Shown here: piece by piece, positions 21,295 to 35,377 of the stretch | How positions within the stretch are numbered: position 1 is the first letter of the stretch | Layout of the letters: each line of letters starts with the position of its first letter | From: Liolophura sinensis | Taxonomy: Eukaryota > Mollusca > Polyplacophora > Chitonida > Chitonidae | Assembly: GCF_032854445.1 (NCBI RefSeq) | Contig: NC_088301.1 | Location: forward strand, 23,088,726 to 23,152,725 | Direction: 5' to 3' | DNA length: 64,000 nt | Notes under the pieces: model-generated | Databases searched by the model: none | What the model was told of the DNA's origin: nothing | Seen by the model: only the letters and a program-made list of their open reading frames with translations | Program-made: the position numbers and the translations under genes

Positions 21295-24200
21295 ATGGCG
21301 AGGTCTGATATTGTCTTCTCGATTGTGGCAACCATCACCGTCGTCATGGCTGGCTTTGCTCTAGGAGGAATTACTCAGATGGTGGATGAGTTTTACTACG
21401 GGAAGTTTCCCGAGGGATTTTCATGGGGAACAGCGACAGCCTCTTACCAAATAGAGGGCGCCTGGAATGTATCAGGTAAGCACAGTTTGTAAACTATCAT
21501 GTTAGCACCTTTGGCAAAATATCGAGTAAACAACTTTGGCAAAGTATCATAGAAGCACCTTTTGTAACGTATCAGGTAAGCACTTTTTGCAACGTATTGG
21601 GTAGGTACTTTTTACAAAGAATCAGATAAGCTCCTCTTGTTATGTATCAGCTAAACACCCTTTGTCAGCACCGGGAGTAAACACATTAGGATGTGTGTTA
21701 GGCATAAACACGTTTACATTAAAAAAATAATCTGTTAATTTAAGTTAATTAAGTCTACTGTCTGAGTGATGCTAGAGTTACTCTGTTATTCCAGCAGATT
21801 ATTCAGTTAAATATAACACACATATTCTTTTAATTCAACATAAATATTCTTTTTAGAACATTATGTTGAATATGAGAGAATATTGTGTTATAAAAACAGA
21901 ATCCATTTTAGCATCATTCAGACAACAGACTTTATGCTAAAATTAACAGACTAACTTTTTGTGTGTATTGATGTATCAGAAAAAAGAATAATTTATAATT
22001 TTTAAAATATAAAACCTTTATACTGTATCAAATGAGTACAATTTGGAAAGTACTTAATTTAACATAGCGTCCTGATCATTCGCTTATTTCAGTCCACGGA
22101 AGAGTAACAGAACAAGATAGCATAATTCTTTCAAACTTTAGCAATACTTCTGCAAAAATCAATGCTGTCTAAGCTGATAAAATGATATATTTAATATGAA
22201 TTATATCCTGAATTATATATTTTAGATGCATACTTATCTAGCTAGTAACATGTCACTATGAGAAACGAAGCTAAGTACCATGCAGGTGAAGTGTATTTTT
22301 CGTTTTCCCCTCAGTTATAGGTTTGATTCATTGTTATATGCGTATGCGTTTAGTACACTATAGAATTATATTTTTCTTTTGTACTAGGTACGCGTTCCGT
22401 TAAGCCATGCACTAAGGGATTATCTATTTTAAAAGTGTGTCACCCGGTCTACATACAATATTGACACATTCATTTGTAAATAAATAGTGGAAGACATGCA
22501 CAAATACACGTACGCAGCTCTATAAGGGTATGTAGTTATAGGTTATGTTTAAGCAGGTAAGACGCGGATTGAAATCCAAAGCACAGTTTTTCAAATACTG
22601 ACCACCGCGAGTTCGAATCCCAGAATGTCAACATTTTTTTTCTTGCGTCAAAATCCCAACCTGGCAAAGGTCAACTGGTCTTACATGCAAGAGCCATGAA
22701 TAAAGATTAGACTACGACTTTGATAGAAACGCCTGACTTATACAACACCAATTCTAAATCTTACCTCTGATTTAATGTCAATAGTCTATATAGCATCAAA
22801 TGTTGCAAAAACAAGTGCTTATCTTCTTGGAGTCAACACTTAAACAGATCACTGTGACTGGACCAATGGATTGTTTATAAATATATTCAATTAAACACAG
22901 TTTTGTTTTACCAAAATAATACGGGGTTTTTGAGATCGAACTCTTTTGTCGCTAAACATACAAAAAGTCCATTTGTCAAAAATGTTAGGCAAATTTCGTT
23001 GACAATAATTTGCCTCACCGTGTTCAGGAGGCAAAAATGAAACCTCTTTTCCTCAAGAACTTTGTAAGCTCACAAGCTTTCGTTTCCTCGATTTCCTCCA
23101 TCGTTCATCTTCTCTAAGTCACATTTTCAGAAACGTTTATAGACGCCCGTCTTACAGCAAAAGAATTCAAAAATGGTTTCCAATCATTTCTGACAGGTCA
23201 CATGGAATAGAAGGGATTGTTTTTATCTTTTTGATAAACAATGCTAGCTCGAAACACTCTTATTAACCTGGCGTCAAGGCCACGTGAATTCACGGGAAAA
23301 GTTACAAAAATAATTTGAAGCATTTCTGGACACAGTTCTCTTCTTTTTTCATTTGAGGGATGAGTTTTCTTTTATATTATGTACCTAATCGCTATCTTTG
23401 ACGAACGCCTAAGTCAGCAAAAGGACTGAGATGATTCTACCGGTGCAAAGATTCTAACACCTAGACCCGAAGTTAATTACATCTATGACTACATGTACCT
23501 CTGACAAATATAAAGAGCTGAAAGTAAACCATAATCAATTTTCAGTGAACAGAGTACACTCAAAGACTTTCAACTCAAAATGCATGTGGATAAAACCGCC
23601 GAGCCAGTGGCCCAGATTTTATGTAAAATACTTAGTTCGTGAGAAAGACGAAGATAAACAACAACAACTCCGTAATGATGACATCATTCAATGGTCCTGC
23701 TGCATGTGTTTCTTTTCTAGTTCTAGTCCCATCGCCTTATGGCGGCGCACGCATTTACGTGGATATGAAGCGCCCACATGAAGCAGACATTAGACAGCTG
23801 TATGCAATTTCACAGTTGGATGGGATTCTAGCTGATCTAAATTGTGCAGAAAGTAATTCAATGCTTGAGAGAAAATAGACTAACACTCAACCCAGAAAAG
23901 TGCGAATTTGGGAGGGATAGGTTAGTGTACGTGGGACACGTACTATCCTCTAAAGGAGTATGTATGTCAGGATTCAGGAAAGTTTGAAGCAAAAAGACGA
24001 GAGAACCTGCTAGTGCGCGTTTCCTGGACCCGGTATATTGCTGATTTAGGCCTCATCAGCTGTTGCTGCCGTTCTACTGCTGATTTGGGCCTCCTCAACT
24101 ATTGCTTCCGGTATATTGCTGATTTGGGCCTCGTCAGCTATTGCTCCAGGTATATTGCTGATTTGGGCCTCGTCAGCTATTGTTCTCGGTGTATTGCTGG

Positions 24201-35377: not shown

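Follow-up and report, generated by a model that had tools for sequence, protein, structure and literature searches.

Tandem arrays over three splice junctions of a chiton GH1 gene resemble the mirage minisatellites of lancelets

Tandem duplications of exon-intron borders have been described in lancelets under the name of 'mirages' (PMC3087553; PMC3902484). Such duplications are documented for Branchiostoma Adh3 and the globin genes BflGb6 and BflGb9 (PMC3087553), as well as for troponin C and PGBD5 (PMC3902484). Lancelet mirages are found at donors and at acceptors, carry splice signals in many of their units, though not in all, and possess a homogenised interior with diverged edge copies, while the coding copy is intact (PMC3087553; PMC3902484). 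The affected genes are reported to splice normally, the generating mechanism is called unclear, and copy-number polymorphism or somatic instability is listed beside the undisturbed splicing (PMC3087553; PMC3902484). Intron gain by tandem duplication is a further point of comparison; it is formulated in the genomic duplication model of Rogers (as presented in PMC3087553), and an RdRp case is listed for potato (PMC4974935). The common feature is a duplication that carries splice signals, but in the locus reported here existing introns are enlarged. The eight exons of this gene recur in every other complete GH1 gene of the genome, so that no new intron position is seen. The minisatellite over a donor of the human interferon-induced gene 6-16 (IFI6) is said to provide multiple splice donors.

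The locus reported here, gene B, is a predicted glycoside hydrolase family 1 (GH1) gene of the chiton Liolophura sinensis and lies in the window, the whole stretch of 64 kb that was analyzed. Its arrays are like lancelet mirages in that the unit spans the exon-intron border (7, 26 and 83 bp of it, respectively, being exonic), both donors and acceptors are affected, the splice signal is retained in many of the units but not in all, the coding copy is intact, and, in the 47-bp array, the interior is homogenised and the edge copies are diverged. They differ in their mollusc host, in reaching up to 36.9 copies, in that controls show no junction preference in our sample, and in being known from the sequence of one assembly. 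Judged by this anatomy, the gene B arrays appear to belong to the mirage kind. Since the units are built from local exons, common descent with the lancelet repeats is not expected, and the likeness is one of the kind of event, not of a family by descent. The initial annotation had held that no system of this kind was described; the lancelet mirages are such a system (PMC3087553; PMC3902484). No mollusc case of border-spanning minisatellites was named among the matches listed in the literature searched, outside of which most subscription journals lie, and within that partly accessible literature these minisatellites have so far been described only in lancelets.

Gene B and its paralogues

Exon limits of gene B were predicted from splice sites and an open GH1 reading frame of 493 residues, and arrays in the 64-kb window were detected with Tandem Repeats Finder (TRF). 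The features are as follows.

21295..35377, plus strand: gene B, GH1 (beta-glucosidase/lactase-like), 8 predicted exons (GT/AG borders and open frame, Pfam)
21295-21475, 27215-27345, 29890-30150, 31240-31423, plus strand: predicted exons 1-4 of gene B (GT/AG joins, one open frame)
33443-33673, 33945-34074, 34357-34541, 35199-35377, plus strand: predicted exons 5-8 of gene B (GT/AG joins, one open frame)
21469..21664, plus strand: 25-bp array, 7.8 copies, over the exon 1 donor; unit holds 7 bp of exon (TRF)
28194..29915, plus strand: 47-bp array, 36.9 copies, over the exon 3 acceptor; unit of 26 bp exon and 21 bp intron (TRF)
31341..32598, plus strand: 87-bp array, 14.5 copies, over the exon 4 donor; unit of 83 bp exon and GTGA (TRF)
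24029..24549, plus strand: 39-bp array, 13.4 copies, within intron 1 and away from junctions, an internal comparison (TRF)
6094..16475, plus strand: gene A, GH1 paralogue that shares the 8-exon organization of gene B, outer ends approximate (tblastn, TRF)
42997-43434, minus strand: histone H2A gene (Pfam)
47992-49923, minus strand: DUF229/sulfatase-like protein, single frame (Pfam)
58729-59976, minus strand: pieces of a Tc1/Tc3-like transposase (Pfam)

The predicted gene B protein matches the Pfam profile PF00232 with E=1.3e-168 over positions 3-448 of 453, and its translation contains both NEP and TENG, which we take to be motifs with a role in GH1 enzymes. The frame ends in ...LKKLVS (window 35340-35520), and paralogue A possesses a longer C-terminal tail (exon 8, from 16288 on); the bases downstream of the gene B stop still resemble the related tail, but in another frame. 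The short C-terminus could reflect a truncated protein, a young pseudogene or an assembly error. On the 3' side of gene B, a higher-order array is present at 36664-37301, in which 66-bp units are organized in near-identical 127-bp blocks (3.8 copies, 99% matches; TRF). Elsewhere in the window, a 146-bp sequence stands twice in tandem at positions 2288-2579 without a mismatch (2.0 copies, 100%; TRF); this duplication presumably arose very recently, unless it stems from heterozygosity or from the assembly.

TRF and the exon model agree with the initial annotation that arrays of 25, 47 and 87 bp, with unrelated units, each sit on a splice site of gene B (two donors, one acceptor). The 25-bp array begins 7 bp within exon 1 (exon end 21475, donor GTAAGC) and has the border TATCAG/GTAAGC in its unit; the 47-bp array stops 26 bp within exon 3 (start 29890, after TTTTCAG), with TTTTCAG/GTGAACC in the unit; and the 87-bp array begins 83 bp within exon 4 (exon end 31423), with AGAATG/GTGAGT in the unit. 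Arrays account for 28.8% of the intron sequence of gene B, in keeping with the earlier suggestion that junction duplication enlarges introns. In the 47-bp array, interior units mostly fit the consensus at 0.91-0.98, and the poorest agreement is shown by the junction copy and the three units preceding it (0.84, 0.80, 0.73 and 0.85, the junction copy last). The first 26 bases of the true exon 3 differ at two positions from paralogue A and at five from the array consensus (counted by eye), and hence give no sign that the array has rewritten the exon. With its 29 codons, the 87-bp unit was also considered as a translated internal repeat; we rejected this because a reading continued past exon 4 is stopped in the second and third copies and further on changes frame.

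A profile search of the genome with PF00232 yielded 75 exon-level matches, and tblastn on the corresponding stretches located 11 GH1 genes, grouped into four clusters, ten of the genes with all eight exons and one with five found, in addition to one orphan exon. Across the GH1 stretches and the window, TRF arrays cover 17.6% of intron, 1.1% of exon and 10.0% of other sequence, and the intron coverage of individual GH1 genes ranges from 0 to 36.5%. No TRF array overlaps any junction of gene A. Satellites had been reported close to both ends of its intron 2; the pentanucleotide tract near the donor was recovered (it starts 22-49 bp after it), but the 33-bp array does not lie 70 bp from the acceptor, since, as delimited by TRF, the 32/33-bp arrays extend to 9141; some 170 bp separate them from exon 3 (9312), with which there is no overlap. 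Another paralogue, on chromosome C13, carries a 64-bp array of 12.4 copies at its exon 4 donor, with a unit of 58 bp of exon 4 followed by GTAAGT, and its exon 6 donor also scores in the word test described below. We considered the second exon 4 donor array as a surprising coincidence and discarded the idea: with five hits over 14 junction types, it is by our own estimate the likelier outcome that two of them share a type, which makes the shared exon 4 donor unremarkable, and the closer paralogue A lacks such an array.

Junctions and neighbouring intron in the sampled genes

The junctions were sampled from GH1, GH18 and three further protein families rather than genome-wide. For GH18, 30 of 67 matches were taken and merged into 23 stretches, in which 96 junctions were placed by hand from candidates, several of them with an array in view; the third sample comprised aldehyde dehydrogenase, AMP-binding and carboxylesterase-type exons at 31 loci with placed junctions. 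Dropped before counting were the orphan GH1 exon (C10b, 55007) and, for GH18, acceptors or inner borders of merged matches for which no placement was obtained. In the third sample, acceptors were left out at L052, L054, L056 and L057 (unplaced) and at the upstream exon of L063, as were the L068 donor and the L059 match, which lies outside its stretch. Altogether 303 junctions were compiled; two GH18 donors lacked sufficient flank, leaving 301 in the word test. For this test, a 22-base word (10 bases of exon and 12 of intron) was compared with the 500 bases lying outward of it, with a cut at a minimum of 17 matching bases of the 22. A visible array was the reason for including one GH18 acceptor (C1_3000235, 6735); with 16 matching bases of the 22 it falls below the cut and is not counted among the hits.

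A tandem copy of themselves was carried by 13/301 junctions. Control words taken from the intron at 40, 80, 120, 160 and 200 bp recurred in 14/299, 20/299, 18/299, 25/299 and 25/298 cases, respectively, and those taken 30 bp inside the exon in 3/301. The junction does not differ from the word at +40 bp (p=0.85); compared with the word at +200 bp (13/301 vs 25/298, p=0.045, at the 17-of-22 cut) the direction is that of a depletion at the junction. In the all-family word test, as in the coverage analysis, distances run along the sequence and past the next exon. Confined to single introns, the GH1 junctions gave 5/144, and the GH1 controls gave 4/142, 7/142, 7/134 and 13/128 at 40, 80, 120 and 160 bp and 15/124, 15/114 and 13/108 at 200, 300 and 400 bp. 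Donors (9/152) and acceptors (4/149) did not differ significantly (p=0.26), and 10/287 junctions had a tandem copy when the 14 junctions of gene B were left out.

Border arrays are present beyond GH1. Among the tested GH18 junctions, 7/94 had a tandem copy; those recognized by eye include three acceptor arrays of 86 bp (with codons for QYKLVCYF after the acceptor), 46 bp and 53 bp, and a donor array of 34 bp. In the GH18 stretch G000 (C1:8722830-8729543, local 832-1149), the 86-bp unit consists of the acceptor, about 31 bp of exon start and GTAAGACAA, which resembles the donor end of the same exon; possibly a whole exon was duplicated, lost its middle and was then amplified. The three other protein families contributed 1/60 junctions, namely an aldehyde dehydrogenase donor (L057) spanned by a 37-bp duplication (2.0 copies) in which the GT of the second copy is lost; this duplication is apparently a young stage of array growth. 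The hit rates of the glycosidase families (12/241) and of the other families (1/60) do not differ significantly (p=0.48), the latter being too few to show generality.

Over the 303 compiled junctions, coverage by TRF arrays increased smoothly on the way from exon to intron, with no peak at the exon border. On the exon side it amounted to 0.6% at 31-60 bp inside the exon and, toward the border, to 1.7% and 3.1%; on the intron side it was 3.7% in the first 10 bases and, going outward, 4.7, 5.9, 6.7, 7.0, 7.7, 9.8, 11.5 and finally 14.3% (at 400-499 bp). Exon-proximal array edges, counted per 50-bp bin, numbered 2 and 7 in the two exon bins next to the border and 9, 5, 3, 10, 5, 6, 9, 6, 6 and 6 outward in the intron. 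Under a model of uniform placement, the 43 intronic arrays of the 11 GH1 genes overlap junctions four times against 2.64 expected (P=0.27), and once against 2.43 expected without gene B. Gene B taken alone has three of its five arrays at junctions (P=0.0006), a value to be read in the knowledge that the gene was picked for this feature; the probability that any of the 11 GH1 genes would hold three of the five junction hits is 0.06.

Tandem duplications at splice sites might be seeded by breaks or R-loops that accompany splicing or transcription, and such a process would accord with the concentration of arrays at the junctions of gene B and with the higher array coverage in introns (17.6%) than outside the GH1 genes (10.0%). 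We consider it improbable: coverage climbs across the border without a peak, the number of array edges per 50-bp bin stays level, and copies of junction words are no commoner than those of words deeper in the intron. The P value of gene B is not taken as evidence for a mechanism, since the gene was singled out when unusual features were being looked for (28,010 protein-coding genes are predicted in the Liolophura japonica assembly; PMC11068029). Three junction arrays had seemed unlikely by chance, which is true of gene B viewed alone but not of the GH1 family; a common mechanism specific to junctions, which had been proposed on that ground, is not supported by our counts. In the sampled genes, junctions are struck no more often than nearby intron. 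The clustering in gene B is an outlier selected after the fact, and it may have a local cause.

Decoy splice sites in the array copies

Many but not all of the array units retain the splice signal. In the three arrays of gene B it is intact in 48/56 units (4/7, 34/36 and 10/13, in the order of the exons), and in eight junction arrays taken together the GT/AG pairs of 75/88 decoys are intact. Decoy donors (32/43) appear more eroded than decoy acceptors (43/45), which strict neutrality would not predict, although the arrays are of different age. Erosion of donor decoys across the eight arrays could hint at selection against them, or merely reflect array age. Compared with the other positions of the units, GT/AG is less conserved in three of the four donor arrays and more conserved in the acceptor arrays, which differ among themselves in age and number; the decoys are thus neither consistently conserved nor eroded.

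Use of the decoys would break the protein. We tested 48 gene B decoys, located by short motifs, and an open frame leads out of 0/4 exon 1 donors, 0/33 exon 3 acceptors and 0/11 exon 4 donors. These data bear on the proposal that decoys are maintained so that a digestive enzyme is spliced noisily or unproductively, for which the many intact GT/AG pairs would speak. Such selected regulatory arrays are very unlikely in our judgement, still more so than junction-directed breakage: GT/AG is not consistently better conserved than other positions, paralogue A is devoid of a TRF array over a junction, and, as none of the tested decoys opens into the frame, only decay-type regulation would be left. The earlier suggestion of selection for noisy splicing is therefore not upheld.

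Origin and meaning of the border arrays

Assemblies often misjudge how many copies a tandem array holds, and repeats might accordingly have been collapsed or expanded here. We give such an artefact very little credence, since HiFi reads that are longer than any of the three arrays (0.2-1.7 kb) make misassembly unlikely; their mean length is reported as 8,347 bp at 14x in the Liolophura japonica assembly (PMC11068029). The array copies also differ from one another, and consequently do not represent one read repeated. Hardly any weight attaches to a dispersed satellite or an intron-like mobile element inserted at splice sites, since introners, or mobile introns, place the same sequence at many genome sites, but the units copy the adjoining exon end, differ from site to site and, for the 47- and 87-bp units (two of the three were searched, with a search that passes over very common words), match one place each, their own locus.

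We regard the arrays as probably mirage-type minisatellites, generated by neutral tandem-duplication turnover in repeat-rich introns and tolerated at borders. A short tandem duplication would by chance take in an exon-intron border. The exon-adjacent copy would retain a working splice site and stay under coding selection, while the surplus copies would join the intron, free to drift and to multiply via slippage or unequal exchange like an ordinary intronic minisatellite; selection would purge only those duplications that damage the exon-proximal site. Because duplication in this scheme ignores exon borders and selection removes only damage to the exon-proximal site, borders should be affected roughly as often as the intron beside them, and because the exon-proximal copy stays functional, border arrays should be tolerated. 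Introns are rich in repeats (17.6% in GH1 genes and 28.8% in gene B, compared to 1.1% in exons), so that borders would be hit as a by-product. What we infer is the succession of steps, the growth by slippage or exchange, and the correct use of the exon-proximal site; direct support comes from the anatomy of the units, their specificity to the locus (for the two of three that were searched), the lack of a junction excess in the sample and the protein-breaking decoys. It may additionally be, as a weaker possibility, that some genes such as gene B gather border arrays beyond chance.

What is usefully added to the lancelet cases is the presence of border copies at 13/301 chiton junctions, along with the controls. 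Should the rate of about 4% of junctions be general, copying of splice borders might be ongoing across the chiton genome, with thousands of introns bearing intact-looking decoy donors or acceptors that the spliceosome would have to pass over for the exon-proximal site; we put this forward tentatively and hold the opposite to be somewhat likelier. If it is true, chitons would be a second natural test bed, after lancelets, for the resistance of splicing to decoys and for the growth or shift of introns. Border arrays in a mollusc, at about the frequency of ordinary intron arrays, already move the question from what special process targets splice sites to how splicing tolerates many decoys.
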